Shown here piece by piece: positions 27,613-44,661 of a stretch of 64,000 nucleotides of DNA. The position numbers and the translations under genes are program-made. Source of the DNA: Cryobacterium luteum (GTDB lineage Bacteria > Actinomycetota > Actinomycetes > Actinomycetales > Microbacteriaceae); contig NZ_FOCN01000002.1 in assembly GCF_900110125.1 (NCBI RefSeq), positions 310,001 through 374,000 of the forward strand, given 5' to 3'. Every line of letters begins with the position of its first letter. The first letter of the stretch is position 1. A model generated the notes under the pieces. It had not been told where the DNA came from. It worked only from the letters and a program-made list of their open reading frames with translations, and did no database searches.

Positions 27613-28069
27613 CGGTGCGGCGCAACACCGACATCGTCACCGGTCGCCGCGACGACGCGCTTGAGTGACGCTCAGCTCCCTGGCAGGCAGGCGTGAATAC
27701 TGCGCCTTGGCCCGCGGTCCAGTCGCGATCCGCAACTCGCATTCCATCCCTATATGTCCGCTGCGAAACAATCGTTACCCCTCCTCCGAAGTGTTCATTA
27801 TGTGTCTGCCAAAGTGCAGTTGACAGTTACCCAAATCTTCGGCGTGAGACAGATTTGGCCATGAGCCTGGCGGCCATACTGGCTAGCGGGGCGTAAACCG
27901 GTCAGTAAAGATCCGTGATTTCGTGCCCCGAGAGCGCCGACCGATCGCGGTCGGCGGGTGCCGAGGGGGAACTGATAATGATCACGCGGAACACGCCGCA
28001 CAGCGCGATTCTGGAGTACAGCCAGATTCCACTGATAGCAGGCCTTCCCCCTCTTCACGGCTTCGACGC
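27613..28069 (+). other. Long 5' region before pstC, no supported gene
   Basis: A 457-base stretch without a convincing ORF. It holds a perfect 8-bp hairpin CGCCGACC/GGTCGGCG (27935-27956) about 115 bases before pstC and a TTGACA (27823-27828) without a matching -10 box. GTTCATT near 27790 recalls half of an actinobacterial PHO box (GTTCACC), but no second half in register is present. The promoter of the cluster probably lies here. Confidence 0.5.
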
Positions 28070-29098
28070 ATGAGCGGCCCCAACATTCTTGAGGCGCTTG
28101 ACGTCTCCGACGGCTCACGTCCCCAAGACGATAGCCCGCGGCAGCTAACCACGGTGCGTGGCCCGTCCGACACTGTTTTCCGCGTCGCGGCGCACGGTGG
28201 TGGCGTGCTGGTGCTGTCGATCATGACGCTCGTCGGGCTCTTCCTCGCGGTCAGGGGCGCGGAAGCGATTGCATCGGCCGGGCCGTCGTTCCTCACCGAG
28301 CAGGACTGGGAACCCAACTCCGGCCGTTTCGGCATTGCCGCTGTACTGTTTGGCACCGTGGCGATTGCGCTGATCGCGATCGTCGTCGCCCTGCCGCTCG
28401 CGGTCGGTACCGCGACGTATATTTCTGAGTACGCCCCGTTGGGGCTGAGGCCGCTGCTGGTGGGTATCGTCGATTTGATGGCCGCAATCCCCTCTGTGGT
28501 TTATGGCCTCTGGGGTATGTTCTGGCTCGAAGGGGCGATCCTGCCGGTCGCCCAATGGATTTCGACCTACTTCGGGTGGATTCCGATCTTCAACGTTCCC
28601 AACTTCAATCCAGGGGACCCCCTCGCGACACCGACGGTGTTCACCGCCAGCGCCTTCCTGGCTGGCTTAGTGGTAGCGATGATGGTCGCCCCGGTAGCCG
28701 CGTCGATCATGCGTGAGGTCTTCGCGCAGGCTCCGATCGGCGAGCGTGAGGGTGCTCTGGCTCTGGGGTCGACCAAGTGGGGGATGATCCGCTCGGTGGT
28801 TTACCCCTTCGGTATGGGCGGCATGATCGGTGGTGCCATGCTCGGCCTCGGTCGGGCGCTCGGGGAGACGATCGCGGTCTACCTTGTCATCTCGCCCGTC
28901 TTCGTCATCCAGCCGCACATTCTGCAGACCGGCAGCAACTCGATCTCCTCACTGATCGCATTGCGCTATGGGGAGGCGTCGCCGTTTGAGCTGTCTGCTC
29001 TGATGGCGGCCGGGCTGGTCTTGTTCCTCATCACGATGCTGGTCAACTTCGGTGCCGGCATCATCATCCAACGTTCCCGTTCCGGCGCGGCAAGCTGA
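28070..29098 (+). CDS. pstC: Pst-type ABC transporter permease
   Basis: A 342-aa inner-membrane permease. Six TM helices form the core, and the cytoplasmic EAA-like loop is visible as EREGALALGSTKWGMIRSVVYPFGMGG with the following GRALGETIAVYLV characteristic of PstC. The family forms the PstCA channel for phosphate energised by PstB. ATG 28070 is chosen as the first start after the non-coding leader; the longer open frame runs back through it without a ribosome site. pstA follows after 9 bases. Confidence 0.9.
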   Translation: MSGPNILEALDVSDGSRPQDDSPRQLTTVRGPSDTVFRVAAHGGGVLVLSIMTLVGLFLAVRGAEAIASAGPSFLTEQDWEPNSGRFGIAAVLFGTVAIALIAIVVALPLAVGTATYISEYAPLGLRPLLVGIVDLMAAIPSVVYGLWGMFWLEGAILPVAQWISTYFGWIPIFNVPNFNPGDPLATPTVFTASAFLAGLVVAMMVAPVAASIMREVFAQAPIGEREGALALGSTKWGMIRSVVYPFGMGGMIGGAMLGLGRALGETIAVYLVISPVFVIQPHILQTGSNSISSLIALRYGEASPFELSALMAAGLVLFLITMLVNFGAGIIIQRSRSGAAS

Positions 29099-29107
29099 GA
29101 GACCCCG

Positions 29108-30388
29108 ATGACAATCACTGATACTCCTCGCGCGCAGCGGCGTGCGCAAAGACCCGGACGCATCACCCGCACGGCGGTCCCGGGCCGTGATGGTCGCAGC
29201 AGCCATCCCACCCGCCCCGAGACGCGGCGAAACCTCGCGCGGATCCGCCGCGACGACGTGTTGCGCGTTGTTGGCGCAGCGGCCGCAGCCGTCGCCGGCA
29301 CCGCCTGGTTGTTTGCTCAGGTTTTTCCCTTCGAGGGACCGCTCACGTTCGTCGTGATCGCCTACCTGCTCTTCGTCGGGTTCTTCGTGGTGCTGATCAG
29401 CTTCGACGACAACCGGGTGACGGTGATTGACCGAGTCGCCGCGGTGGTCATGCATTCCCTCGCGGTGGTTCTGATTTTGGCGCTTGCCGTGGTGATCGTC
29501 TTCACTCTCGGTCGCGGCTCCGAGGCCTTTCTCAATTGGAACTTCTGGGTTCAGGACCTGTCTTTGGCTGGCCCGCTCGACCCGATGACCGTCGGCGGCA
29601 TGGCGCATGCGGCCATTGGCACCCTGATCATGATCTCGATCTCACTCGCTATCGCGATTCCGCTCGGGCTTCTCTGCGCGGTGTTCCTCGCTGAGTTTCC
29701 GAGTCCTTTCGCCCGCATCGTGCGCACCGTGGTTGAGGCGATGACGGCGCTGCCGTCCATCGTGTGCGGCCTCTTTATCTACGCCACCTACATCCTGTTG
29801 TTCGGCTTCGACAAATCGGGATTCGCGGCGAGCCTGGCAATCACGATCATGATCCTGCCGATCATTATCCGCTCGGCCGACGTCGTACTGCGCCTGGTGC
29901 CCGGCACGCTGAAGGAAGCGTCGCTGGCACTGGGCACCAGCCAGTGGCGCACGATCTGGCACGTGGTGCTGCCCACCAGCAAGTCCGGTCTGATGACCGC
30001 GATCATCCTCGGCACTGCCCGCGGCATCGGAGAGACCTCGCCGGTGCTGCTGACCGCCGGCTACACCACCTATTACAACCTCAACCCATTTTCCGGGCCG
30101 ATGGTGTCTTTGCCTTTCGCCACCTTCACGCTGGTGAAGTCGCCCGAGCCTTCGCAGATCGCGCGAGGTTTCGGTGCCGCGGCGGTGTTGATGGTGCTGG
30201 TGTTTGTGTTGTTCCTTGTCGCCCGCATCATCGGCGGAAAGGGAGCAGGCGTGCTCTCTCCCGGGGGGCAGGCGCGAGCTCGCGCCGCTTCGCTGCGCGA
30301 CGCCGTTCGATTCGACCAGCGCGTGCCGACGACACCCGATCGGCTTGACGTTCCAGCAATTCCCGACGACCAGGAGGTCACCCGATGA
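29108..30388 (+). CDS. pstA: Pst-type ABC transporter permease with N-terminal extension
   Basis: A 426-aa permease, longer than the usual ~290-aa PstA. The first 50 residues are basic and Pro/Arg-rich, then two extra TM helices (about 52-95) precede the six-helix core. The EAA loop reads KEASLALGTSQWRTIWHVVLP, followed by GTARGIGETSPVLLTAGYT, a PstA signature. It overlaps the next gene by ATGA. The extra helices could bind another cluster product; this is inference. Confidence 0.9.
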   Translation: MTITDTPRAQRRAQRPGRITRTAVPGRDGRSSHPTRPETRRNLARIRRDDVLRVVGAAAAAVAGTAWLFAQVFPFEGPLTFVVIAYLLFVGFFVVLISFDDNRVTVIDRVAAVVMHSLAVVLILALAVVIVFTLGRGSEAFLNWNFWVQDLSLAGPLDPMTVGGMAHAAIGTLIMISISLAIAIPLGLLCAVFLAEFPSPFARIVRTVVEAMTALPSIVCGLFIYATYILLFGFDKSGFAASLAITIMILPIIIRSADVVLRLVPGTLKEASLALGTSQWRTIWHVVLPTSKSGLMTAIILGTARGIGETSPVLLTAGYTTYYNLNPFSGPMVSLPFATFTLVKSPEPSQIARGFGAAAVLMVLVFVLFLVARIIGGKGAGVLSPGGQARARAASLRDAVRFDQRVPTTPDRLDVPAIPDDQEVTR

Positions 30389-32064
30389 GCCTGCAGAGAA
30401 TCCCACGTTGGGGTGTGGCGCGCGTGACCGTCGCGTTGCTTGGCCTCGCCCTGATCGCCTTTGGCGTCTTTGGAGCCGCCGGTGCTCTACCCGCCTACGC
30501 CGTCGGAACGGTGCATTCGCCGATCGTAGGCTCAGGCTCCACCTGGTCGGCCAATGCGCTGCAGGCGTGGATTCGTAACGTGTGGGCTAACTACCAGTGG
30601 AAGATCACCTACTCCGAGTCCGGCTCGACTCAGGGTCGAAACGATTTCGCGAACGGCACCTCCGACTTCGGCGTCTCGGAGATTCCGTACGCCATCGCCA
30701 ACAGCAATGAGGCGGATATTCGCCCCAGTCGCGAATTCGCGTACATGCCGATCGTCGCCGGCGGCACCGCATTCATGTACAACCTCGAAATTGGTGGTAA
30801 GCGGGTAACCAACCTGCGACTGTCGGGCGATACCATCGCGAAGATCTTCACCGGCGTGATCACTCGTTGGGACGACCCCCAGGTGAAAGTCGACAATCCC
30901 GCCCTCGTACTCCCTTCCATCCCGATCGTTCCGGTGGTGCGTTCTGACGGTTCCGGCGCCACCGCGCAGGTGTCGATCTGGCTTCGACAAGAACATGCGG
31001 GCCTGTGGGATGCGTACTGCCCGAAGGTTGGGCGTCCCCTGGTGAATGATCATTGCGGCGTCACGAGCAACTACCCGGTCATTCCCGGTTCCGGATTCGT
31101 CGCCCGATCCGGATCCAACGGTGTCGCCGGCTACGTGGCACTCCCGCATGCCGTGGGGGCGATCACCTTCGTCGAGTACTCTTACGCCCTGAACTCGGGC
31201 TACCCCGTCGCCAAGGTGCTCAACGGTGCCGGCTACTACACCGAGCCGACCGCTCAGAATGTTGCCGTTGGACTGCTCAGTGCTCAAATCAACGAAGACA
31301 CCGCCTCACCCGAGTACCTCACCCAAGACCTCACCAACGTCTACACATCTGCTGACCCGCGCACGTATTCCCTCTCTTCGTACTCGTACAGCATCCTGCC
31401 TACAGCGCTGGGAGGCAGCTTCACCGAGAACAAGGGCTTGACCCTGGCGGATTTCGGCGCCTATTTTCTTTGTGAGGGCCAGCAGAGCGCCGAAGTGCTC
31501 GGTTACTCGCCGCTGCCGATCAACCTCGTGCAGGCCGGGCAGAAGCAACTGCAGAAGGTGCCGGGCGGTAACCCCGTGATCAAGGGCATCACCGACTGCA
31601 ACAACCCCACTTTCTCGCCGGACGGTTCAAACAAGCTGGCGAACGAGGCACCGTACCCGGCCGATTGCGACAAGCAGGGTCCAACCCAGTGCACCACCGG
31701 TACGGGGGGCGCCAAGGACACGCCCACCGGCGCGGGAGCTGCAACGGGCCCGGGAGCGGCAACTGCCGCCGGCGATGAAACGGGGGCAGGTGGTGGGCCG
31801 GCAGCAGGTGACGGCCAGCAAGCGGCCGGCAGCGAGGGGGTGCTGGATGCGGAGACGGCGCCGGTCATCGTGGCTGCATCCCCGCAGTCCATCCCCGTGG
31901 CAGCGGTAAGCCTGCTGCCGTCATTGGCCATGGCTGGTTTCGGCGGCGGCCTGTTCGCCTTCTCGGCGATACCACCGATCTTGGGCAAACGGGGTCGCAC
32001 GAGCCTGCTGCCCGATCCTACTGACGGTATTACGGACACATCGAGAGGACTGACACGCTCATGA
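30385..32064 (+). CDS. PstS-like substrate-binding protein with C-terminal TM anchor
   Basis: 559 aa. A signal peptide (about 10-38, ending AYA) has no lipobox Cys. The PBP-like domain shows GSGSTWSANALQ (about 50), TYSESGSTQGRNDFANGTSDFG and RSDGSGATAQVS, which correspond to the phosphate-binding loops of PstS; the second Asp of the usual DFGASD is changed (DFGVSE). After about residue 420 comes a Gly/Ala/Thr-rich stalk, then a TM helix (about 510-530) and a basic tail (GKRGR). It is therefore membrane-anchored from the C-terminus, not a lipoprotein. It overlaps the next gene by 4 bases. Confidence 0.83.
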   Translation: MSLQRIPRWGVARVTVALLGLALIAFGVFGAAGALPAYAVGTVHSPIVGSGSTWSANALQAWIRNVWANYQWKITYSESGSTQGRNDFANGTSDFGVSEIPYAIANSNEADIRPSREFAYMPIVAGGTAFMYNLEIGGKRVTNLRLSGDTIAKIFTGVITRWDDPQVKVDNPALVLPSIPIVPVVRSDGSGATAQVSIWLRQEHAGLWDAYCPKVGRPLVNDHCGVTSNYPVIPGSGFVARSGSNGVAGYVALPHAVGAITFVEYSYALNSGYPVAKVLNGAGYYTEPTAQNVAVGLLSAQINEDTASPEYLTQDLTNVYTSADPRTYSLSSYSYSILPTALGGSFTENKGLTLADFGAYFLCEGQQSAEVLGYSPLPINLVQAGQKQLQKVPGGNPVIKGITDCNNPTFSPDGSNKLANEAPYPADCDKQGPTQCTTGTGGAKDTPTGAGAATGPGAATAAGDETGAGGGPAAGDGQQAAGSEGVLDAETAPVIVAASPQSIPVAAVSLLPSLAMAGFGGGLFAFSAIPPILGKRGRTSLLPDPTDGITDTSRGLTRS

Positions 32065-34721
32065 CTACCGCTTCAGCTCAGCACCCTTCGACCCGCAAGC
32101 GCCTCGCGCAGGCGGTGAGCCTCGTCACTGTAGCCCTGCTTGCCGGGGGTGTCATGTCGGTGAACGCAGCATCATCCGCCCAAGCCGTGGAAGATGATTC
32201 GTCCGTGACGGTGAAGTGGGCCGGCGGCAACAGCGCCGATCTACAGCAGTACCAGGTGGACCATGCCGGGCGGCTCAGCGACGCAACGGGCAACGACGCC
32301 GGCTCCGGCCATTGGGACGACTTCAAAAACCTCCAAATCACCGTCTCGCAGACCGCCGGCCTCAGCGACGGCGCCATCACCGTCTCGGCGTCGGGCATGG
32401 CCCCCACCAGGAATCAGAGGTGGGACGGAAGTGCGAGCAACTACCTGCAGCTCATGCAGTGTTGGGGCCCCGACCCGCTTGCCGACGACTTCGCAGAAAC
32501 CTGCCAATACGGCGGCTGGGATCCGGGCACCGGCGGCAACGGCAATACGGATCTTATGCAGACAATGATCGGCGGTGATACGTACAACCGTGGCTGGCGC
32601 GGCGCACAGGGGACGCTTCCGTTTCGTTCGGTCAGCGGTGAGGTGAGCGAACCGTACACGGTGGAATATGCCAATGCTGTGATCAAATACAACGGGCTCG
32701 GGACGTTCTTTAATGCCAACACGTCAAACGAGGTGCCGTTTCTGCCCATCGATACCGACGGTCATGCCAGTACGGCCTTCGGGGTGCAGTCGGCGGCAGC
32801 GGCGCCCCACCTTGGCTGCGGCAACCCGGCATCCGCCGCTGCAGAGCGGTGTTGGCTTGTGGCGGTACCCCGCGGAGTACACTCCGGCGGGATCGAGGGG
32901 AAGCCCGCCACAGATTGCATGTCAGCCGTCTATGGCGGCCTGCCCTACGGCGCCGCAAATGACCAGCAGGTGGGATCGCCGGTTACGCCGTACTGTTCTT
33001 TCTTCGACGACCGGATCGTGATCCCCCTGGACTTCTTGGACCCCTCCGGGTCGTGTCCGGCCGGTGCCGCAGAACGCCGCCTGGTTGGCAGTGACACGGT
33101 TACCCTGGCGATCAGTGCCTGGCAGCCGGCGCTCTGCGCTGCCGACGGTGGTGCCACCTACAGCCTCAGCACGAACTCCGGCAACGTGAACCGCTCGCAG
33201 TTGCTCACCGGTCAGGCCGATATGGCCCTGGTGTCGTCCCCCGTCAGCGCATCCAGTATCGGGCTGACCGATCCTGCCCTCGTTGAGGCGGCCGATGTGC
33301 AGTACGGACCCATCGCCAACACCGGGCTGGTCTTTGGCTTCGTCATCGCTAACGGAACCACCCAGTACACCGACGTGAAGCTGACGCCCCGGCTGCTCGC
33401 CAAACTGCTCACCGCGTCGTACTGGAGGGACAAACCTTTCTTCGAGGGGAAATTTTCTGAGACCCAGTCTCTTTCCAGGGAGCTGTCCGTTGCGCAGGTG
33501 CTGCCAGAGGACCCGGAGTGGGCCGCCCTCGGCAACCCGGTCGAGTTCAGCAACAATAATGGGCAGGCCTTCGTCGTTGTCGGGCCGCAGGGTGACGACG
33601 CGGTGCAAGCGCTCTGGTCGTATATCCAGGCCGATGCCGACGCGCGCGCCTTCCTGGCGGGCGAACCTGACCCCTGGGGCGGAGTCGTGAACCCCTACTT
33701 CCTGCCGGCGGACCACGCCAACGCCGTCGGCGGCGGGCTTCCCTTCAATCTTGCGACCGATCCCATCGACACCTTCCTCAAGGCCGACCAGTCGATCACC
33801 CCGAGTAAAGAAATGGCCGACGATCAATTCAAAGGTAACCAGCTCGACAGTGTTGCCGCGTTCCCGTATTCCACCAGCTTCACCTCGAACGCATCCCGCA
33901 TCTTTAGCATCGACACCAGGGCCACTTACAGTTGGGACCCGTCGAAACCCGTGGGCGCATTGGGTAACGGTGCGTTCGTCCCCGCGCAGCCGGGTTCAGC
34001 GGCAAGTCAGAAGTTCATCATGGGGCCGACCACGGCTGCGTCGGCGGCGCGCTTTAGCCTGGGCACGGCGAGCCTGCCACTGCCCTTAGCCGAACTGACC
34101 AGCGAAAAAACGGTAGCCAGCGCGCGTTCCTTCGCCCGGCCGAGCACCGAATCGATGCAGAGTGCGGCGGCCGGCGCGAGTGTGGACGCTGAAACCGGAT
34201 TCGCCCAGATCGACCCTGCCACCCTCACAGACGGCGCGTATCCGCTCACCCTTGCGGTGAACGCCGCCGCGAACCTGGCGTCGACCTCGTTGGACGCGAC
34301 GGCACGCACCGAGTATGCGAAGTTGCTGCGCTACGCCGCCGCTGACGGCAACACGGTTGGAACCGGGGTGGGGCAGCTGCCGCCGGGCTTTGCGCCCCTC
34401 ACCCAGGCCCAGACGGCCGCGACCCTTCGATTCGCCGATGCTCTGGTTGCGCCCCCGACGCTTCCGACGAACCCGGTGACCGACGTTGCCCTGCCCGCGC
34501 CGGTGGCGGGAACGACGGGTGTGTCCGTCGTGGGCGCGTCGCCGGAGGCTGCCGCACTGACTCAGGTTCAGGTGACGCAGACGCCGGTGCAGCTCACGGC
34601 CGCCAACACCGAGCTCACCTCGTCGGCTGCGCAGGGCGCGCTCGGTATCAGCCTGCTGATCGGTATCGGCGGCCTCGCCGCGGCACCGTTTTTGCTGCGC
34701 AGGAGACGGGCCAGCGTATGA
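32061..34721 (+). CDS. Large surface-anchored substrate-binding-like protein
   Basis: 886 aa. Signal peptide (about 15-43, ending AQA), a Cys-containing N-terminal domain (CW near 133 and CQ near 146), and a middle part that resembles half of a PstS-type binding protein (ADMALVSSPVSASSIGL, then KLTPRLLAKLLTASYWRD, near 380-460). The C-terminus has a TM helix (about 862-880) and a basic tail RRRRASV, without LPXTG. I do not recognise its full domain. It is coupled to the PstS-like gene before it and ends 73 bases before a terminator, closing the first transcriptional block. Confidence 0.75.
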   Translation: MTTASAQHPSTRKRLAQAVSLVTVALLAGGVMSVNAASSAQAVEDDSSVTVKWAGGNSADLQQYQVDHAGRLSDATGNDAGSGHWDDFKNLQITVSQTAGLSDGAITVSASGMAPTRNQRWDGSASNYLQLMQCWGPDPLADDFAETCQYGGWDPGTGGNGNTDLMQTMIGGDTYNRGWRGAQGTLPFRSVSGEVSEPYTVEYANAVIKYNGLGTFFNANTSNEVPFLPIDTDGHASTAFGVQSAAAAPHLGCGNPASAAAERCWLVAVPRGVHSGGIEGKPATDCMSAVYGGLPYGAANDQQVGSPVTPYCSFFDDRIVIPLDFLDPSGSCPAGAAERRLVGSDTVTLAISAWQPALCAADGGATYSLSTNSGNVNRSQLLTGQADMALVSSPVSASSIGLTDPALVEAADVQYGPIANTGLVFGFVIANGTTQYTDVKLTPRLLAKLLTASYWRDKPFFEGKFSETQSLSRELSVAQVLPEDPEWAALGNPVEFSNNNGQAFVVVGPQGDDAVQALWSYIQADADARAFLAGEPDPWGGVVNPYFLPADHANAVGGGLPFNLATDPIDTFLKADQSITPSKEMADDQFKGNQLDSVAAFPYSTSFTSNASRIFSIDTRATYSWDPSKPVGALGNGAFVPAQPGSAASQKFIMGPTTAASAARFSLGTASLPLPLAELTSEKTVASARSFARPSTESMQSAAAGASVDAETGFAQIDPATLTDGAYPLTLAVNAAANLASTSLDATARTEYAKLLRYAAADGNTVGTGVGQLPPGFAPLTQAQTAATLRFADALVAPPTLPTNPVTDVALPAPVAGTTGVSVVGASPEAAALTQVQVTQTPVQLTAANTELTSSAAQGALGISLLIGIGGLAAAPFLLRRRRASV

Positions 34722-34884: not shown

Positions 34885-36057
34885 ATGCAAATGAAGAAGA
34901 ACTGGCGTCTTGGCGCCATCGCCGCCGCTGCCGCGGTAGCCACCATATTCACAGGCTCGTCCGCAGCCTTTGCGGATCCCAGCGGTGCTCCGACCTACCG
35001 TGCGCTCAGCGGCGTGGGATCGGACACCACTCAAGACCTGAACAACGGTCTCTCCTCGGCCATGCTCTCGGAACAAACCCGTGTCGCAGGTTCGTATAAC
35101 GCGACGAACCCCACTACCGGCGCTATCCACGACCTGATCAACACACGCACCGGCGGGCCGAGCTTTGAACGACCGAACGGTTCGAGTGAGGGTGTCAACG
35201 CGCTGAAGGCCGCGAAGACAGGTACGGCATGGCGCGGTGTCACGCTGAGCGACGCAGACCTCCAGTTTGCCCGCTCGTCCAGTGCCGCATCCCAGTGGGT
35301 ACCTGGTGGAACGTACTCCTACATTCCGCTGGCCCTCGACGCGGTGAGCTTTGCCGTGCACTCGAGCAACACGACGATTCCGCACGACCTTACCCAGGCC
35401 CAGCTGACGGCGATCTACAGTGCTGACAACGGGGCCAACGTGACCATCAACGGAACCAGCTACAAGGTGGGCACTGAGGGAACGGCCGGCGTTCAGATCA
35501 CTCCGTTCATCCCCCAATTGGGATCGGGTACGCGCAGCTTCTGGCAGTCGCAGCTTGCACCGACTGGTTTTGGTTCCGCAGTCGATGACGCCTACACCGG
35601 CGGCGGCGTGCAGGAGCACGACGGTAGCGTGCTGGCCGCGCTCCCGACGACGGCGATAGTGCCGTTCTCGATCGCCCAGTGGGTCGCTCAGAACAACAAG
35701 GCCACCATCGAGTCGCAGTACGCCGGAGTGAGCATCACCGACCGTCGCCATGGCGCAATCCTCGGCACAATCGGTGGAATTGCGCCCACGACCGGCACCG
35801 CGCCGGTCGCGCTCAACACCATGTTCCCGATAGCACGCCCGGTCTTCACCGTCGTCAAGAACGCAGAGCTGGCCACGAACGCGCAGCTTGCCGCCGCCTT
35901 CAGCGGAGCATCCGCTCAGGCATACACGACGAACCGGCCTGGCCCGTCGACCGCGCTCGTCATCACCGACTTCGGGTTCGGCAGCCTGGCGGGCGGCGTC
36001 TCTATTGATGGGGTGACCTATACCGCCGGCGACACCGCGTCGTTCCGCGCTAACTAG
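34885..36057 (+). CDS. Secreted PBP-like (PstS-type) substrate-binding protein
   Basis: 390 aa. A signal peptide (about 1-30, cut after AFA) with basic start MKKNWR; no lipobox. The mature part begins TYRALSGVGSDTTQDLNNGL, which fits the PstS-type first loop (VGSDTT), and has QLGSGTRSFWQSQL as second loop. Unlike the two earlier binding proteins it has no C-terminal TM helix, so it should be secreted or held by other cluster proteins. It is enclosed by two terminators and so may be expressed by itself at high level. Ligand unknown; a phosphate-like anion is possible. Confidence 0.8.
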   Translation: MQMKKNWRLGAIAAAAAVATIFTGSSAAFADPSGAPTYRALSGVGSDTTQDLNNGLSSAMLSEQTRVAGSYNATNPTTGAIHDLINTRTGGPSFERPNGSSEGVNALKAAKTGTAWRGVTLSDADLQFARSSSAASQWVPGGTYSYIPLALDAVSFAVHSSNTTIPHDLTQAQLTAIYSADNGANVTINGTSYKVGTEGTAGVQITPFIPQLGSGTRSFWQSQLAPTGFGSAVDDAYTGGGVQEHDGSVLAALPTTAIVPFSIAQWVAQNNKATIESQYAGVSITDRRHGAILGTIGGIAPTTGTAPVALNTMFPIARPVFTVVKNAELATNAQLAAAFSGASAQAYTTNRPGPSTALVITDFGFGSLAGGVSIDGVTYTAGDTASFRAN

Positions 36058-36224: not shown

Positions 36225-37604
36225 ATGAAGGCATCCCGAACGGCGGCCGGTCGACAAGCGACCGGCGCGTCAATCGTCATGACAATCGTGCTCGCGCTCC
36301 TCGCGGGCGCGCCGACGGCAGCCCATGGAGCAGACGTGGTCCTCGACCCGACGCTGCAGATCACCGACGCACCCCTCGTTTTCACTCCTGCGAGTCGAAC
36401 GGGCGATTTTTTCGCGTCGAAAACATCTGCGCTTGTGTTAGGCCCGGACGTGATCTCGAACGAATTGGCCAATTGTCCCGTCGGCTACCGAAGCTCGTCA
36501 CGCTCCCTCGTCATCGCTCCCGACGGCACAGTATCGTCAGCTGCGGAGTGGGTACGCACTCCGCCAGGTAATTATTATGGTCTGAACGAGACCGCGGGCG
36601 AGTACATCTACTTGGACGGCATGGCCGCCGTCCGTTGGAACGAGGTCACGTTTCAGACCGGCCTCAACCGGTTCATCGTGACGTGCGATCCCGCGCTTCG
36701 AACCATGACCGACTCGTTCGCTGATTCGAAGTACTTTCTCGTTACCCTTGACGTGAACGTCGCAGCGAAATCGTGGACGGTAGTTGCCAATCCGGTGAAT
36801 GAGGCGAAGCTCACTCCGTCGATCGCTTTCACAAAAACCACCGCCAACGCTGACGGCTCGGTCACTTTGACGTCCACCGTCTCCGCTGGCGCGGGTGTGG
36901 CGACCGACGCCACCGGTGTTGTATCCATCTCCGGCAACTACTCCGGGCTGGCCACACCGGTCAGCGGCGAGGCGGCAGTTTCGGCCGGGGTGGCCACCTG
37001 GAGAACACCGGTGCTTGACGCAGACCGGACATATACCTTCACGGCTGGCTACACGGCGAAGGGCGACACGAAATACACCGACTCCGCCGTCAACGCGACG
37101 ACGACGGTCACCACCGTCGCCGGGCCGACACCGCCGCAGAACACCGCCATCACCGTCACGATCCCGGCGTCTGCTACCGGATTGAAGTTCACGATGACTC
37201 CGGGTGCTGTGGCCCTCAACCAGGCCGCCCTCGACGGCACCTCGTATGTGGCCACCGGATCGCTGGGCCAAGTCACCGTCTCTGACAACCGCCGGGCCCG
37301 CACCGCGTGGACCCTCAGCGGCAACTCGACCAACTTCGTCAACACCGCCGACGCCACGCAGACCATCGCAGCGACCAGCCTCGGCTGGAAGCCGGCCCTG
37401 GTCGGTGCAACCAATGCCGGCACGGCCGGCATCGAGGTCATCGCCGGAGCCTCCGGCGGACTGTCGGCCAGCACCCCCCTCGCCCAGGCTGCGGCCGGCG
37501 TCAGCACCGCGGACACCACCATCAATGCCGGCATCACGCTGAAAGCTCCAGCCGACTCGGCAGCTGGCGTGTACAGCGCAACACTCACTCTCACCCTCAT
37601 CTAG
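36225..37604 (+). CDS. WxL-domain-like secreted surface protein
   Basis: 459 aa. Signal peptide (about 15-37, ending AHG), a unique N-terminal domain to about 195, an Ig-like domain (about 198-295), then a C-terminal domain with the two marks of WxL domains: VTVSDNRRARTAWTLSGN with Trp362-x-Leu, and a final VYSATLTLTLI corresponding to the usual Y-x-A-x-L-x-W-x-L, in which the second Trp is missing. WxL domains bind peptidoglycan in Firmicutes; the next gene encodes a DUF916 protein, their usual partner. ATG 36225 follows AGAGAGAT. Assignment is by motif only. Confidence 0.7.
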   Translation: MKASRTAAGRQATGASIVMTIVLALLAGAPTAAHGADVVLDPTLQITDAPLVFTPASRTGDFFASKTSALVLGPDVISNELANCPVGYRSSSRSLVIAPDGTVSSAAEWVRTPPGNYYGLNETAGEYIYLDGMAAVRWNEVTFQTGLNRFIVTCDPALRTMTDSFADSKYFLVTLDVNVAAKSWTVVANPVNEAKLTPSIAFTKTTANADGSVTLTSTVSAGAGVATDATGVVSISGNYSGLATPVSGEAAVSAGVATWRTPVLDADRTYTFTAGYTAKGDTKYTDSAVNATTTVTTVAGPTPPQNTAITVTIPASATGLKFTMTPGAVALNQAALDGTSYVATGSLGQVTVSDNRRARTAWTLSGNSTNFVNTADATQTIAATSLGWKPALVGATNAGTAGIEVIAGASGGLSASTPLAQAAAGVSTADTTINAGITLKAPADSAAGVYSATLTLTLI

Positions 37605-37618
37605 GCACCACCTGTTTG

Positions 37619-37654
37619 GCCGCATCCCGCTGACTTCGGTGGGCAGGATGCGGC
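37619..37654 (+). terminator. Hairpin between WxL-like and DUF916 genes
   Basis: GCCGCATCC pairs with GGATGCGGC (9 bp, 18-base loop), without U-run. Likely a weak terminator or mRNA-processing element. Confidence 0.5.
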
Positions 37655-37723
37655 ACCGGGGCCGCGCCTGAGCAGTTCACTCCTGACACGTTCACTATTG
37701 ATTTGTGCAAACCGAAAGATTCC

Positions 37724-38878
37724 ATGACTACTCGTGTTTCGGCCCTCGCGCGACTGACGGCGGCCCTCGCCGCAGCCCTGCTTCTAGCTTCTCCCACCGC
37801 GGCGTTCGCCGAGGGGGAGAACGCTGTGACCTGGAGCGTGCAGCCGTCAACGCCGCAGGGACCGGATGATCGCCCCGAGTTCGACTACACCGTCGCCCCG
37901 GGCGCCACCATCAGCGATTGGGTCGCCATCTCCAACTTCTCCTCCCGTCCCGCCACTTTCCGGGTGCACGCGGCAGACGCCACAACCGACTACACCACCG
38001 CCGCATTCACCCTGATCGGTGCTGACCAAGCATCTGTCGACGCGGGAGCGTGGACATCCGTCGACTCCGCCGCGGCGGTCTGTGCTGATACCAACGACGC
38101 GGCCGAAAGAGCCTGCGCGGCAGGTCTGGGCGTGACCATCACCCTCGAGCCCGGCAGTCGCGCCGATGTGCCCTTTACTGTGACTGTGCCCCACGATGCG
38201 ACACCGGGCGATCACGCCGCGGGCATCGTGGCCTCGTTCCAGTCCGAAGCGGTCGATTCCACCGGGTCAGCCGTCAGCGTTGAGCAGCGGGTGGGCACCC
38301 GCATCTATCTGCGGGTCGAGGGTGCCCTGCTTCCCAAGCTAGCACTGACCGGGCTTGTCTCGGGCTATGACGGCTCCTGGAACCCTTTCGGCGGCGGTAC
38401 CGGGCGGATCGGATTCGACGTGGCCAATACTGGCAACATGCGCCTGACGGCCACGCCGGCCGTGCACCTCACCGGCCCCTTCGGCACCGATTTCGGCACC
38501 GTCACCCTCGACCCGGTAACCGATGTGCTGCCCGGCGGCGTTGCCCATGTGGAGGCCCTTTTTGCCGACGTGCCGCCGCTCATGCTGCTGTTCGCCGATA
38601 TCACCCTCGCTGCCGCTCCGGCCTCCGGTGTTGCAGCAGCGCAGGATGCTGCGCCTGCCGTTCTCACGGAGTCCACCGTCGCCTGGGCGGTGCCGTGGTC
38701 TCTGCTCGGGACCATCGCGGTGCTCGGTGGTGGGACCGGGACCTGGTTCTGGTGGCGTCGCCGGTCGCGACAGCTCCTGGGATTTGAGCTTGCGGCTTTC
38801 GCCGAGCAGATCCGTACCGAAGAACGCATCAACCGCGGGGCATCTGCCCCCGAACACGAAAGTGAGACCGCCCGATGA
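37724..38878 (+). CDS. DUF916 (WxL-interacting, peptidoglycan-binding) membrane protein
   Basis: 384 aa. Signal peptide (about 1-30, ending AFA), a DUF916-like domain (VTWSVQPSTPQGPDDRPEFDY to about 165, with the typical ITLEPGSRADVPFTVTVP), a second beta domain with the SGYDGSWNPFGGGTGRIGF stretch, one TM helix (about 325-350), and a charged cytoplasmic tail. In Firmicutes, DUF916/DUF3324 proteins attach WxL proteins to peptidoglycan. ATG 37724 is chosen; an upstream TTG in frame has no ribosome site. It overlaps the next gene by ATGA. Confidence 0.8.
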   Translation: MTTRVSALARLTAALAAALLLASPTAAFAEGENAVTWSVQPSTPQGPDDRPEFDYTVAPGATISDWVAISNFSSRPATFRVHAADATTDYTTAAFTLIGADQASVDAGAWTSVDSAAAVCADTNDAAERACAAGLGVTITLEPGSRADVPFTVTVPHDATPGDHAAGIVASFQSEAVDSTGSAVSVEQRVGTRIYLRVEGALLPKLALTGLVSGYDGSWNPFGGGTGRIGFDVANTGNMRLTATPAVHLTGPFGTDFGTVTLDPVTDVLPGGVAHVEALFADVPPLMLLFADITLAAAPASGVAAAQDAAPAVLTESTVAWAVPWSLLGTIAVLGGGTGTWFWWRRRSRQLLGFELAAFAEQIRTEERINRGASAPEHESETAR

Positions 38879-39699
38879 ACGCTGTTCCCGTAACTTTCAC
38901 CCCGGGCGAAGCTCGCCCGCCGAAACGCCGCAGCGCGGGGCGCCTGGTGGCATCAGCTCTGCTGCTCGGTGCGGTGACGGCGAGTCTTGGGCTTGCGGGC
39001 GGCGGTGCGGTGTTCGCCGCTGACGGTCAGGACACCGACTTCACGGTGACGATCCCCACGCCAACGCCAACGCCCACGCCCACGCCCACGCCTTCGCCCA
39101 CGCCTTCGCCAACGCCTACTCCAACGCCTGACCCGACGGTCGTGCCGGTTGCCACGGTGCCTCGCGCCACTGTGGGTCGCGTGGGCGGCGTGGGCGCCGG
39201 TACCGCTGCCGCCGGCGGCGTAGACGGCGCTGCGGACGAGTGCACTCCGGTCGAGCCGACCGTGCCGACGGTTCCGGCTACGACCGGTGAAAATGCCACC
39301 GTTGACCAAAAAGTCTACGAGCCAGGGCAGAAGGTGACCGCAACAGCCTCTGGGTTTGGCGTCGGAGAGCAGGTGCAACTGGTCATGTTCTCTGAGCCTG
39401 CCCTGGTCGGCAGCTTCACCGCCGACGCGCAGGGTCAGGTGCAGGCGGTTTTTCCCGTGGACGAGGCGGCCCTGCCGGGCACGCATGCGGTGCAGTTCAC
39501 GGGATGGTGCACAAGGATCGCCCTGACCACTGTGTTGGTCGGCTCTGACGCGCTGGTGGCCTCGGCTACTTCGTTTCCGATGTGGGTCTGGGGAGCCGGC
39601 GGCGTTGTCGGCACGGCCGGGCTTGCATTGGCTGGCGGGCACCTGCTTCGTGTGATGCGGGTCCCAGCGCTGCCCTCGGCGACGACGACGAGCGCCTAA
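38875..39699 (+). CDS. Surface protein with Thr-Pro stalk and C-terminal TM anchor
   Basis: 274 aa. Signal peptide (about 20-50), then a Thr-Pro/Ser-Pro repeat of about 30 residues (near 59-85, nucleotides 39058-39130), a Gly/Ala linker, one Ig-like domain (about 142-220, YEPGQKVTATASGFGVGEQ), and a TM helix (about 228-252). The stalk is the kind that spans the cell wall. There is no LPXTG. It overlaps the sortase-like gene by TAATG. The three-base-pair-periodic repeat could change length. Confidence 0.75.
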   Translation: MNAVPVTFTPGEARPPKRRSAGRLVASALLLGAVTASLGLAGGGAVFAADGQDTDFTVTIPTPTPTPTPTPTPSPTPSPTPTPTPDPTVVPVATVPRATVGRVGGVGAGTAAAGGVDGAADECTPVEPTVPTVPATTGENATVDQKVYEPGQKVTATASGFGVGEQVQLVMFSEPALVGSFTADAQGQVQAVFPVDEAALPGTHAVQFTGWCTRIALTTVLVGSDALVASATSFPMWVWGAGGVVGTAGLALAGGHLLRVMRVPALPSATTTSA

Positions 39700-40787
39700 T
39701 GGCGACGTCCACAGCCCTGCCTGCCCCATCGAGCACACCCAACACTATGGGCGTTGCCGCGCCGTCGCGGCCGCCGTCGCGACCGACCGGCATCAACCGT
39801 TTTGCGGTCACCGAGAAGTTCAGTCGCGTGCTTGCGCCGCGCCGCGCCGCGCCTAGCGGTGGCCCGCGGAAGCCGCCCCCCCGAGGCCCGGCGCGGGCAG
39901 GTGGCTCGCGGCTTCCGCCGCCGCCCCGCCAGCTCGCACCGAAGGACACGCGCTGGTGGGCAGGTGCAGCGATTCTCACCGTGTCATTGCTGCTTCTGGG
40001 TTTTGTGAGCCACGTGGCGCTGTTCTCCGTCTTCCAACACCATCGCGCCCAAGACCTCAGCTATCAGCAGCTGCGCACGACACTCGCCAAGGCGGAGACC
40101 CCGGTCGGTCAACTTGATCTGGATGCCGAACTTGTGACCATTGGCACTCCGGTGGCGCTCATCCAGATCGGCGCAACAAAACTTACTGAAGTGGTCGTCG
40201 AGGGGTCGACCGGTGAGGCGCTGCGCGCCGGCGCCGGTCACCGCCGGGATTCGGTGATGCCCGGCCAGGCTGGCACGAGCGTGATCCTCGGACGACAAAC
40301 CGCGTATGGCGGACCGTTCGGATCCTTAAACGAGTTGAAGCCGGGCGACGAGATCGCTGTGACGACCGGACAAGGCGTGCACAGCTACACCGTGTTCGCC
40401 CTCCGCCGGGCGGGCGACCCGATGCCAGCACCACTGGCGCAAGGAAAAGGCCGGTTGGAGTTGATGACCGCCGACGGTCTCGCTCTCTTCCCGTCCGGTG
40501 TGCTGCACATCGACGCCGAGCTCACCTCCCCCGTGCAGACCACCCCGACTAAGGTACTTGCCTACCCGGCGCTCCCCCCGATCGAGCGGGCAATGGGACA
40601 GGACCAAAGCCGCCTGTTCAGCTCCTTCTTCATGTTGGTCATTTTCGCCGCAGCCGGAATCACACTCTGGTGGCTCTGGACTCGCTGGGGCAAATGGCAA
40701 GCCTGGCTGATCGGTGTGCCCATCATGCTCGCCCTCGGCGTCACCACCGCAGACACCATCATGAACGCGCTGCCTAACCTTCTCTGA
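39699..40787 (+). CDS. Sortase-fold protein lacking catalytic residues (pseudosortase)
   Basis: 362 aa. A Pro/Arg-rich cytoplasmic N-terminus (about 90 residues), one TM helix (about 90-112), a class E/F-like sortase domain (about 135-275), and two more TM helices (about 305-355). Alignment by eye: the usual AGHRTTYGAPF reads LGRQTAYGGPF, so His is Arg199; the usual LTLTTC reads LELMTADG, so Cys is Ala258; and no Arg remains in the final strand (VLHIDAEL). Enzyme activity is therefore unlikely; a scaffold or binding role is inferred. ATG 39699 is coupled to the upstream stop. Confidence 0.8.
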   Translation: MATSTALPAPSSTPNTMGVAAPSRPPSRPTGINRFAVTEKFSRVLAPRRAAPSGGPRKPPPRGPARAGGSRLPPPPRQLAPKDTRWWAGAAILTVSLLLLGFVSHVALFSVFQHHRAQDLSYQQLRTTLAKAETPVGQLDLDAELVTIGTPVALIQIGATKLTEVVVEGSTGEALRAGAGHRRDSVMPGQAGTSVILGRQTAYGGPFGSLNELKPGDEIAVTTGQGVHSYTVFALRRAGDPMPAPLAQGKGRLELMTADGLALFPSGVLHIDAELTSPVQTTPTKVLAYPALPPIERAMGQDQSRLFSSFFMLVIFAAAGITLWWLWTRWGKWQAWLIGVPIMLALGVTTADTIMNALPNLL

Positions 40788-40832: not shown

Positions 40833-41858
40833 ATGACTGCCCAGTCTCCATCTCGGCCCGCTTACCACAACGACCTGACCGACGTACACCTGACGGCTGC
40901 GGATGCTGCAGAGCTGGCCGCCGTGCGCGTACCGCTGCACTCCGAAGATCCCTCGTTGGACCTCACCACGGTACTGGAGTCCGTCGAGAGCGACACGGTG
41001 CTGGGTACGCGGCCGGAGACCTCCCTGAATGCGGATGCAGAAATCATCGATGCCCATGTTCGCTCTGACGCTCCGCGACCGGTCTTATCGGCTCTGGAGG
41101 CGCGGGATGTCTCCGCGTGGTTCGGCACGCACAAGGTGCTTGAACGAGTCTCGCTCACGATGGAGGCCGGCCAGGTGACGGCCTTGATCGGCCCGTCCGG
41201 CTGTGGCAAGAGCACGTTTCTGCGCATTCTCAACCGCATGCACGAACTGGTGCCGCTGGCGTCGTTGGCCGGCGAGGTGGTACTCGACGGAGCCGACATC
41301 TACGACCGCACGCGCAAACTCACCGACGCCCGACGCCACATCGGGATGGTATTTCAAAAGCCCAATCCCTTTCCGGCGATGTCCATCTACGACAATGTGG
41401 TCGCAGGGCTCAAACTCACGGGCATCCGCGCCTCTCGCGACGAGAAAGACGAAGTCGTCGAACGCAGCCTCACCAGCGCTGGACTCTGGCGCGAGGTCAA
41501 GGACCGGCTGCGCCAACCGGGCGGTGGGCTCTCGGGCGGACAGCAGCAGCGGCTCTGCATCGCACGCTCACTCGCGGTAAAACCGAAGGTGCTGCTGATG
41601 GACGAACCCTGCTCGGCGCTCGACCCCACGTCGACGCGCGTGATCGAGGAGACAATGGGCGAGCTGCAAAAGGAGGTCACAATCGTGATCGTCACCCACA
41701 ACATGCAGCAGGCTCAACGGGTCTCGCAGAAGTGTGCATTCTTCCTGGCATCCCAAGGCACGCCGGGCGGAATCGTGGAGCACGGCGATACGGATGCCAT
41801 GTTCTCCGAACCCCAGGACGAGCGCACTTTCGACTACGTGAACGGCCGGTTCGGATAG
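40833..41858 (+). CDS. pstB: Pst-type ABC transporter ATPase with N-terminal extension
   Basis: A 341-aa ATPase that would energise PstC/Pst[10 protein letters not shown] starts at residue 120; Q-loop [10 protein letters not shown], signature LSGGQQQRL and [15 protein letters not shown] follow, with [12 protein letters not shown] as H-loop: all PstB signatures. The usual protein is about 255 aa; here about 80 extra residues (acidic, with several Asp/Glu) precede the ATPase. AAGGA lies 9 bases before the ATG. It is separated from pstCA by more than 10 kb of surface genes, an unusual order. Confidence 0.93.
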
Positions 41859-41941: not shown

Positions 41942-43750
41942 ATGACACCCGGCAACGACGCAGAACTGCTCGACGGGCGGTACCGGCTGGGCGAGCTGCT
42001 CGGCGTCGGCGGGTCGGCATCCGTATTCGCTGCGGAAGACCTAACCGCCACCGGCCAGGGCGACCAGACGTGCCTGGTCGCGGTGAAAATGCTGCACCCG
42101 CACCTGTGTCGTGACGCCGCGACTCGGGAGGCCTTTTTTCGGGAAGCGCGCGCCGCGAAACCGCTGAGGCACCCCAACGTTGCCGCCGTGCACGAGTTCG
42201 GGCTGCACGAGGCGGGTGGCGTGACGATGGCGTGGATCGCCCTCGATCTTGTTGACGGGCCTACCATCTCCGACTGGGTCGAGGCCAACGGCCCCCTGCA
42301 CCCCGCGTCGGCGGCGGCCGTGCTCGACGGGGTACTCGCCGCACTCGAAGCCGCGCACGCGCTGGGGATCGTGCACCGGGACGTCACTCCGCAGAACGTG
42401 ATGCTCGACGGCGCTGGCAGAGCGCATCGGGGCGAAGCGCTCACCAGCGCACAGGTGCGGCTGGTCGATTTCGGGCTCGCCGCCGCGACCGGGTACGCCG
42501 CCCTCGGCAGCGACGTGCTGCTCACTGAGCACGAGCCTGCGGCGAGTGGCGACGCCGGCCCCGACGCGGCGGCGACTAGTGAACGGGCACCAACCGGTGT
42601 GGTCGGCAACGTGAATTTCATGTCGCCCGAGCATGCGCAGGGCAAACCCGTGCGCGCTGCCGGTGACCTGTACCAGTGCGGTGCACTGCTGTATTTCATG
42701 CTCACCGGGCAGCCGCCTTACCCACGAGACGTGGCCGCGCTCGTGCTCGAGGCGCACGTCTCAGCACCCCCGCCGGTGCCCTCCGTGCTGGTACCCGCAG
42801 CGCGGGCGCTGGATCGCATTGTGACGCGAGCGATGACGAAAACACCGGCGCGGCGCTACCGCACCGCGGCCGAGTTTCGCACGGTCCTCGCCGATGCCAT
42901 CAGCCGGGACACGAGTCGACTGTCAGCCACGGATGCGACCGCGATCGCTATCGGACCAGACAGCCCGACGGCTGTCACCAAAATGCTGGCTCCGGGTGGG
43001 GCAGGCAATCTCGACTATCTGACTCCTCTGGAACCCGCCGCAGACCACGAGACGACGCAATCGGCGTTCGTCGGAAGCGCCGGCGGTGTCGTCACCATGC
43101 TCAGCATCGCTGCCGTTATGGGGCTCGCGATCTGGGGAACCATCTCCGCAACGGCCGGCCCCGGGATGTCCGAGCCGACATCCCCGGGATACGTGACCAG
43201 CCCGACAGCGACCGCCATACCACCGCACGCGCCGACTGCGACGCCGACCGTGCCTCCGACCGTTCCCCCGACCGCGACGCCGACCGTGCCGGAGCAGGTC
43301 ATGATGCCGACGCTGTTCGGCACCCTCACCGACGCCGAGACCACCCTGCGCGCCGCCGGACTTACCCTGGGCACCATCACCCGCATCGAATCGGCCGAGG
43401 TCGCCGACCGGATTCTCAGCCAGTACCCAACCGCCGGAGAGCCGCTCCCGGCCAGCTCCACCGTTGATGTCACCGTCGCAAGCGGCACGAACACGGTGCC
43501 GCAAGTGGGCGGGATAAGCGCCGCGGCGGCGATCGCGCTGCTGCAATCTGCGGGCTTCGCGGCCACGATGATCCCCGTGGACGGCCCAGTGACGGCGACC
43601 GTTACCGGTACGCAGCCCGGAGCCGGGGCGGTGCTTCGCGTCGGGCTGACCGTGACCCTACTCCTGTCCACCCCAGCTCCCTCGCCTGGCCCGGAGCCGA
43701 CATCGACCGCCCCGCCCGCGGCGCTGCCCGGCCGACAGGAGTCATCATGA
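41942..43750 (+). CDS. Ser/Thr protein kinase with PASTA domains
   Basis: 602 aa. Cytoplasmic kinase domain with glycine loop GVGGSASVF, Lys49 (VAVKML), Asp147 in HRDVTPQN, Asp176 in VDFGLA and MSPEH. The catalytic-loop Lys is Thr149, a variant also seen as Ser in other bacterial kinases. A TM helix (about 380-402) leads to a Thr-Pro linker and two PASTA domains (about 455-580), which bind muropeptides or lipid II. The stop overlaps the transglycosylase start by ATGA, coupling the sensor to a wall enzyme. The start codon is uncertain because no good ribosome site is seen. Confidence 0.88.
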   Translation: MTPGNDAELLDGRYRLGELLGVGGSASVFAAEDLTATGQGDQTCLVAVKMLHPHLCRDAATREAFFREARAAKPLRHPNVAAVHEFGLHEAGGVTMAWIALDLVDGPTISDWVEANGPLHPASAAAVLDGVLAALEAAHALGIVHRDVTPQNVMLDGAGRAHRGEALTSAQVRLVDFGLAAATGYAALGSDVLLTEHEPAASGDAGPDAAATSERAPTGVVGNVNFMSPEHAQGKPVRAAGDLYQCGALLYFMLTGQPPYPRDVAALVLEAHVSAPPPVPSVLVPAARALDRIVTRAMTKTPARRYRTAAEFRTVLADAISRDTSRLSATDATAIAIGPDSPTAVTKMLAPGGAGNLDYLTPLEPAADHETTQSAFVGSAGGVVTMLSIAAVMGLAIWGTISATAGPGMSEPTSPGYVTSPTATAIPPHAPTATPTVPPTVPPTATPTVPEQVMMPTLFGTLTDAETTLRAAGLTLGTITRIESAEVADRILSQYPTAGEPLPASSTVDVTVASGTNTVPQVGGISAAAAIALLQSAGFAATMIPVDGPVTATVTGTQPGAGAVLRVGLTVTLLLSTPAPSPGPEPTSTAPPAALPGRQESS

Positions 43751-44661
43751 ACCTCGATACCACCAGACAGGGCCCCCTGAACGCTGAACCCAGCGGTTTC
43801 CTGGAGCCAAGCGACGACCGGGCATACTGTGCTGGTGTCACACCCGAGCGGCGCAAAAAACGCACAGTTCTCGCGCAGATCGGCATGTTCCTCAGTATCG
43901 GTGTGATCGCCGTCGCAGCGACCGCCGCGATGAACCTTGCGAGCCTGAAGTCTGCGCCGATACAGCCGCCTACGGCCATGGCGGAGGTCGCCCCGCCCCC
44001 GGGCAGCGCCACCGTGAGCGGGCAACCTGCACCGAATACGCAGAACACCCCGGACGCGTCGTTGGGATCGGCCAGTGCGGCGGTGGCGCCCATCGTTGGT
44101 GTCGACCCGGCGTGGGCAGAGAATGTCTCGGCCGTGACCGGTATTCCGCGTCGGGCGCTGACCGCCTATGCCGCCGCTGACCTGACCGTCGATGCCGAAC
44201 AACCCGGCTGCGGAATTGGCTGGAACACTCTCGCCGCGATCGGGGAGATCGAATCAGGGCACGGCAGCCACGGTGGCGCTGTGCTCAGCGACACGGGATA
44301 CCCGACACCCGCGATTCGGGGGATTGCGCTCGACGGCAACGGGGCCGCCGCCATCGCCGACACCGACGGCGGTGCGTGGGACGGCGACACAGTGTGGGAC
44401 CGAGCGGTCGGGCCGATGCAATTCATCCCGGAAACGTGGGCGCGGTGGGGTGCCGACGGCAGTGGGGACGGTGCCGCCGACCCGAACCAGATCGACGACG
44501 CGGCGCTGGCGACCGCCCGATACCTGTGCCACGGCGGCGACATGACCAGCACCGAGACGTGGCGCGCCGCTATATTCTCGTATAACCACGTCGATTCGTA
44601 CGTGAACGATGTGGCCGCTGTGGCCAACCAATACGCGCAGCACCCAGCGAGTGCACGATGA
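43747..44661 (+). CDS. Membrane-anchored lytic transglycosylase (SLT family)
   Basis: 304 aa. Cytoplasmic start, a TM helix (about 42-64), a Pro/Ala linker, and an SLT-type domain (about 118-290) with catalytic Glu near 169 in GEIESGHG, followed by AVGPMQFIPETWARWG and the terminal ARYLCHGG/SYNHVDSYVNDV, typical of actinobacterial transglycosylases that cleave peptidoglycan glycan strands. It ends the cluster; the next operon has its own promoter region. Confidence 0.88.
   Translation: MNLDTTRQGPLNAEPSGFLEPSDDRAYCAGVTPERRKKRTVLAQIGMFLSIGVIAVAATAAMNLASLKSAPIQPPTAMAEVAPPPGSATVSGQPAPNTQNTPDASLGSASAAVAPIVGVDPAWAENVSAVTGIPRRALTAYAAADLTVDAEQPGCGIGWNTLAAIGEIESGHGSHGGAVLSDTGYPTPAIRGIALDGNGAAAIADTDGGAWDGDTVWDRAVGPMQFIPETWARWGADGSGDGAADPNQIDDAALATARYLCHGGDMTSTETWRAAIFSYNHVDSYVNDVAAVANQYAQHPASAR

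Follow-up and report, generated by a model that had tools for sequence, protein, structure and literature searches.

The window analysed here, a 64,000-nucleotide stretch of the Cryobacterium luteum genome, contains an accessory pst-type operon whose genes all lie on one strand, in the order PstC, PstA, PstS559, PBP886, PBP390, S459, WxLIP391, Pro274, pSrt and PstB, and either overlap or are separated by gaps of fewer than 200 bases. The genes are as follows (TM, transmembrane segment; pSrt, pseudosortase).

27923-29098, plus strand: ORF of the PstC permease (TIGR02138, 240.2 bits, cut-off 196.45, residues 84-384); the true start is probably further in
29108-30388, plus strand: PstA permease (TIGR00974, 211.5 bits, over the cut-off)
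30385-32064, plus strand: PstS559, a PstS-like binding protein with a C-terminal TM (PF12849, E 6.9e-35, over the cut-off; hydropathy)
32061-34721, plus strand: PBP886, a large secreted protein with a C-terminal TM and a PstS-like region (hhalign, hydropathy)
34885-36057, plus strand: PBP390, a secreted PstS-like protein (PF12849, 32.8 bits, over the cut-off in the genome search)
36225-37604, plus strand: S459, a secreted protein with a weak WxL-like C-terminal domain (orthologue matches)
37703-38878, plus strand: WxLIP391, a DUF916-type WxL-interacting protein (PF06030, 32.6 bits, cut-off 27.3)
38875-39699, plus strand: Pro274, a Thr-Pro-rich surface protein
39699-40787, plus strand: pSrt, 362 aa, with a Pro/Arg-rich N-tail (1-76), TM1 (about 91-109), a sortase domain (about 146-278), TM2 (about 306-324) and TM3 (about 337-355)
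40833-41858, plus strand: PstB ATPase (TIGR00972, 345.0 bits, cut-off 343.2)

Operon neighbours of the sortase-like gene

A Pst set is present at the locus, with PstC, PstA and PstB over their NCBIfam cut-offs and PstS559 over that of PF12849, and we infer from sequence that the cargo of the operon importer is phosphate. PstS559 scored 171.8 bits against TIGR00975, below the cut-off. The PF12849 match of PBP390 was listed by the genome search and not by hmmscan; this protein scored 28.6 bits against ptsS_2, below the cut-off, and its orthologue in locus L012 matches PF12849 with 30.0 bits, over the cut-off. PBP886 gave no Pfam match, and hhalign aligned it to the PstS559 profile with a probability of 93.4 and an E value of 2.5e-7. 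Since the AF2 model of PBP886 was of low confidence (pLDDT 43, pTM 0.34) and was not used, its likeness to PstS is taken from hhalign alone. The operon resembles the PstSCAB phosphate importer in having PstS-like, PstC, PstA and PstB components, and differs from it in having three PstS-like proteins, two of them with a C-terminal TM, together with pSrt and the surface proteins. A Pho-box scan of the window gave 35 loose matches where 33 were expected by chance, that is, no signal above chance. Contig C30 of this genome has a second PstB match and a second PstS match in one place, and contig C50 encodes one intact class E sortase.

The hydropathy scan detected a C-terminal TM in PstS559 and PBP886 and none in PBP390 and S459. 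WxLIP391 and Pro274 end in a hydrophobic, Trp-rich segment followed by basic residues, which was recognised by eye only and falls under the scan threshold. The sequence-only reading of this DNA had described the surface proteins as lacking LPXTG-like motifs and as held by C-terminal TM anchors. The first part stands, as neither LPXTG-like nor LAxTG-type ends were seen in the operon neighbours in the window, and the second holds for PstS559 and PBP886 but not for PBP390 and S459. LAxTG-type ends were observed in surface proteins of some divergent pSrt operons, at L046:9768-10637, L050:6645-7769, L115:9493-11427, L116:10861-12618 and L119:7743-9194.

S459 itself has no Pfam match, and two of five orthologues match PF13731 below the cut-off (E 0.0074 and 0.014). 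At positions 36225-38878 of the window, a DUF916 WxL-interacting protein lies beside a WxL-like secreted protein in an actinobacterial pst operon. According to PMC10599100, WxL proteins occur almost entirely in Lactobacillales and Bacillales, where the WxL/WxLIP clusters likewise pair a DUF916 protein with a WxL-like one; the pair described here differs from those clusters in its weakly matched WxL domain and in that it belongs, together with a pseudosortase, to a pst-type operon of an actinobacterium. In genome G343 (L202:6990-10644), an intact class E-like sortase adjoins a WxLIP/S459-like pair, with no pst genes in the fetched stretch. Downstream of pstB, at 41942-44661, the window encodes a PASTA-domain Ser/Thr kinase and a protein resembling SLT-type lytic transglycosylases, one or both of which recur after pstB in several relatives.

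Fold and catalytic positions of pSrt

Sortases are enzymes that attach proteins to bacterial cell walls. The ATG start codon of pSrt shares its first base with the last base of the Pro274 stop codon, and the product matches PF04203 with 54.5 bits (cut-off 26.6, E 1.3e-14) in a Pfam profile search. This match spans only positions 1-83 of the 125 positions of the profile, so that the part bearing Cys and Arg lies outside it. NCBIfam ranks class E sortase (NF033747) first, with 66.4 bits; since the cut-off is 160, class E is not called. The AF2 model of residues 77-362 (pLDDT 82, pTM 0.77) shows a barrel preceded by one long N-terminal helix and followed by two C-terminal helices, and the solved structures matching it were all sortases among the 50 entries listed. 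The top structural match among those listed was a Clostridium perfringens sortase of class D (4D70, Z 18.3), which was compared by structure alone and differs in that its entry title names it a transpeptidase. Class E SrtE (5GO5) matched with Z 18.0 and an rmsd of 2.3 over 129 residues, and with a Foldseek E value of 4.9e-10. Taken together, the profile score, the model and the all-sortase structural matches make the sortase fold secure, as the sequence-only reading had it. With class E sortases (SrtE, 5GO5/5CUW; NF033747) pSrt shares the barrel, the N-terminal TM and the G-x-GH...PG..G and YG.PF motifs; in contrast to them, it has no His, Cys or Arg at the catalytic positions, has Arg in place of the Tyr of GHY, carries two C-terminal TMs and lies in a pst operon. 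The catalytic positions fall at the following codons.

40293-40295: Arg199, at the place of the catalytic His (alignments)
40470-40475: Ala258-Asp259, at the catalytic Cys position (with a one-residue uncertainty in the register)
40497-40502: Gly267-Val268, at the place of the catalytic Arg (MAFFT column, or ungapped count by eye)

Several alignments agree on Arg199 at the His position, which bears out the replacement that had been claimed. The Cys position corresponds to Ala258, again the residue claimed, when the alignment is anchored on the preceding strand, and to Asp259 in the MAFFT column. Ala258 is favoured, because a Ser directly follows the conserved Thr in three divergent members whose alignment to the true-sortase profile covers the Cys site. 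The MAFFT reading, with an Arg-Asp pair replacing His-Cys, was dropped because of this Ser and because some members have R, S, T or G at position 259. The sortase domain of the window protein contains no Cys at all. The active-site Arg falls on Val268 in the MAFFT column and on Gly267 in the ungapped count, and its claimed loss is confirmed.

A further substitution concerns substrate reading. In SrtE1, Tyr229 of the beta3/beta4 loop has been proposed to recognise the Ala of LAXTG (PMC5148588). In the alignment this Tyr lies 22 residues from His251, a spacing that places the corresponding position of pSrt at Arg182, and the replacement of this Tyr indicates that class E substrate reading was probably lost as well.

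Relatives with and without pst neighbours

The surroundings could be read for 78 sortase-domain proteins, 50 with PstA-, PstB- or PstS-type genes and 28 without. The score limits for pst neighbours were set after the scores were seen, and the 'PstA' matches of one scan of the surroundings include PstC; two loci (L009 and L016) were assigned as pst-linked by hand, their pstB being cut by the contig end, and some fetched stretches are short (L184, 5.4 kb; L188, L199, L200). The 28 unlinked proteins are those drawn in by the pSrt profile and not a random sample.

All 50 pst-linked proteins were found to lack His (Arg in 49, Lys in one) as well as Cys, their sortase domains being free of cysteine altogether, and 49 also lack the active-site Arg. 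Among the 48 pattern-matched rows of this set, the Cys site is Ala in 38, Ser in 5, Gly in 3 and Thr in 2. The three residues are all kept in 28 of 28 sortases with no pst genes in the fetched stretch. The class E Tyr position shows a similar division: it is R in 38, Q in 4, L in 3, S in 2, E in 2 and V in 1 of the pst-linked proteins, and Tyr in 22 of the 28 unlinked ones. The sequence-only reading had named, as findings that would speak against it, homologues with intact triads in the same context or, in a structure-based alignment, another His/Cys in the active site; by the sequence comparisons made here, it passed on both counts. No intact triad was found among the 50, in stretches read starting from pSrt or from PBP886, and no intact sortase occurred in the 43 pSrt stretches scanned. 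A wider set, drawn at 79 bits or more by a cut chosen after the scores were seen, comprises 83 rows from 82 proteins matched by the profile. The covered part of the sortase domain was likewise devoid of Cys in 83 of 83 rows; the His site was R in 77 rows and K in 4, and the other 2 rows do not reach it. Two of 23 low-scoring rows (L020 and L021) also have R in the His column; in these an insertion shifts the column, and their segments contain the His.

That the substitutions would be conserved beside pstB and DUF916 was borne out for the loss of His and Cys (50 of 50), while the tie to DUF916 proved weaker: WxLIP was detected, at 200 bits or more, in 32 of the 50 pst-linked stretches, and the notion that it always lies beside pSrt was rejected on this count. 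Among the 18 stretches without it, 14 keep PstS559, PBP886, PstA and PstB, and four, which are short or cut, have PstB only.

The pst-linked proteins fall on one side of a single branch, with one change on the tree (SH-aLRT 81). The tree was built by a quick method from 136 columns, a number that the program flags as low, the active-site columns being excluded; of its 75 inner branches 30 are open, and L176 sits on a long branch. Support for a single clade of dead sortases is modest. The first branch of this clade is L180 (L180:9317-10657, genome G425), a pst-linked protein with His replaced by Arg, Cys by Ser and the Arg kept, which is likely to represent an evolutionary intermediate by its sequence. 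Seven intact sortases (L173, L174, L175, L177, L179, L184 and L186) resemble pSrt in their two C-terminal TMs and, unlike it, have His, Cys and Arg and no pst genes in the stretch fetched (only 5.4 kb for L184). In each of two genomes, G757 and G439, a dead copy linked to pst genes coexists with an intact one that is free of them, the pattern expected if a duplicated or transferred gene later diverged.

The C-terminus of pSrt, ALPNLL, directly follows TM3 (window 40767-40784). An LP is present in the last eight residues of 48 of the 50 pst-linked proteins, and also at the C-terminus of the seven intact three-TM sortases. It is conceivable from the sequence that this motif serves as a built-in pseudo-substrate.

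In a scan of named genomes, 23 loci were found, comprising 17 orthologues and six more distant sortases (L020-L025). The 17 orthologues, 58-99% identical to pSrt, have the same substitutions and come from Cryobacterium, Promicromonospora, Myceligenerans, Microbacterium, Microbacteriaceae, Cellulomonas, Aeromicrobium and Bifidobacteriaceae MAGs; identity is 58-73% outside the two Cryobacterium ones. The rows of the counts are not independent, L003 being 99% identical to the window protein, and as proteins were taken from stop to stop some rows have extra residues ahead of the true start. Comparison of the sortase domain with L004 gave a dN of 0.021 and a dS of 0.328, and dN so far below dS indicates that the gene is under purifying selection; the N-tail is the part least conserved in this comparison. 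The residues most conserved among the 50 pst-linked proteins are R199 (49), Q225 (47), R236 (47), R183 (46), R252 (46) and D272 (46). A pSrt-specific conserved set, consisting of R183, D184, R199, Q225, R236, D240, R252, G260 and D272, suggests a rebuilt polar site rather than decay. In the genus of the window, pSrt was detected at 250 bits or more in 8 of 25 genomes, a patchy distribution which implies that it is dispensable for most. In a phylum sample of 396 genomes it was also found outside the class (G508, G597, G439, G635, G425 and G757).

PBP886, searched on its own, was present in 53 of 394 genomes of the class. The pSrt profile at E 1e-20 matched 58 of the 394, of which five (75-78 bits) carry His and are ordinary sortases; the remaining 53 were kept by score, G397 by score alone and G087 and G097 by the C-terminal part. 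The two proteins occur together in 49 genomes, PBP886 alone in four, pSrt alone in four and neither in 337. Each of the four contigs with PBP886 alone breaks off no later than the position expected for pSrt, and no intact sortase was seen on them.

A proposed docking role and its alternatives

By its sequence, pSrt is a conserved pseudosortase that belongs to an accessory operon of Pst type, in which three proteins are PstS-like. Since a sortase fold has been combined with loss of the catalytic residues and, in many actinobacteria, a fixed place in the operon, the protein is probably a holder and not an enzyme. We regard it as somewhat more likely than not that pSrt is a pseudoenzyme, derived from a class E-like sortase and kept as a membrane-tethered docking subunit of the pst operon, which is the most economical reading, and the binding scaffold proposed earlier is plausible. 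The ancestor, with a single TM ahead of the sortase domain and two behind it, would have entered an accessory pst operon, probably once, would have lost His and Cys and then Arg and the substrate-reading Tyr, and would have been retained for a non-catalytic job. Its barrel would sit just outside the membrane beside PstC-PstA and hold, without cutting, the anchored PstS-like proteins PstS559 and PBP886, together with the WxLIP/Pro274 wall platform in operons that have it. Such docking would keep the binding proteins close to the permease and the wall. Since WxLIP is missing from part of the operons, the wall platform is not essential, and since PstS559 and PBP886 are kept in 14 of the stretches without it, the PstS-like proteins are the more likely partners. 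That pSrt binds operon partners through some surface is what we infer from these data. More tentatively, the old groove, now lined by the conserved Arg/Asp set, may hold the tails of the PstS-like proteins and so link the ABC importer to a wall-bound platform; an accessory role in the transporter that bypasses the sortase groove fits the same data.

A role of this latter kind would make pSrt a structural or regulatory subunit of PstC-PstA-PstB, with the barrel only a sensing or plug domain that holds nothing. The three TMs and the long Arg/Pro-rich cytosolic tail are consistent with such a subunit, as are the position of the gene, which adjoins pstB or, in other gene orders, PstS/PBP886, and its retention where WxLIP is absent. 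However, conserved polar residues are found in the extracellular domain (the part that this analysis covered), and the cytosolic tail is the least conserved part against L004, and we consider this reading unlikely.

It is improbable that pSrt is still an enzyme with a relocated catalytic set, based on Thr257 or on R183, D184, R199, R236, D240, R252 and D272. These positions are strongly conserved, and residue 257 is Thr or Ser in all 50 proteins, but none of the 50 has a Cys in the domain, and the intact sortases conserve Thr257 to a similar degree (Thr in 23 of 28, Ser in 2), just ahead of their Cys. The Cys site itself, being Ala, Ser, Gly or Thr in the 48 matched rows, is not kept as a nucleophile.

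A decoy or regulator of an active housekeeping class E sortase, which would bind the substrates of that enzyme or lipid II, appears quite improbable. At least two PF04203 matches, dead and intact counted together, were present in 45 of 46 pSrt genomes among the matches listed, and the LAxTG-type ends of five proteins in divergent clusters would also suit a decoy. Against this, the gene is tied to pst genes and the stretches scanned are free of intact sortases, G296 has a single PF04203 match among the matches listed, dead or intact alike, and in the window the class E Tyr is replaced and LAxTG-type ends are missing from the operon. The loss of the triad might also point to a decaying gene kept by chance, but this is already contradicted by the ratio of dN to dS, by 58-73% identity to orthologues outside the two Cryobacterium ones and by the C-terminal LP in 48 of 50 proteins, and it can be set aside as highly improbable.

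We return to the docking subunit and to what it would mean. A literature search on pseudosortases and on inactive or pst-linked sortases, with subscription papers mostly outside its reach, returned no description of such a family. Pseudoenzymes are already known; a conserved family of sortase pseudoenzymes tied to an importer seems new. We know of no other sortase family with a purely structural role, and if the docking reading is true, pSrt would be the first, in a Gram-positive importer of a new architecture that retains several binding proteins in the wall space. Sortases serve as labelling tools and as drug targets, and a sortase fold in Pfam is usually taken to denote an enzyme. Judged from the residues at the catalytic positions, part of the actinobacterial sortase matches would be non-enzymes, and they could be spotted by a rule that combines pst neighbours, GR in place of GH and the absence of Cys. 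Living intermediates, in which the Arg is kept and Cys has become Ser, would allow the change from enzyme to binding protein to be studied. The finding suggests, in addition, that a form of the Pst importer is associated with the wall and has several binding proteins.
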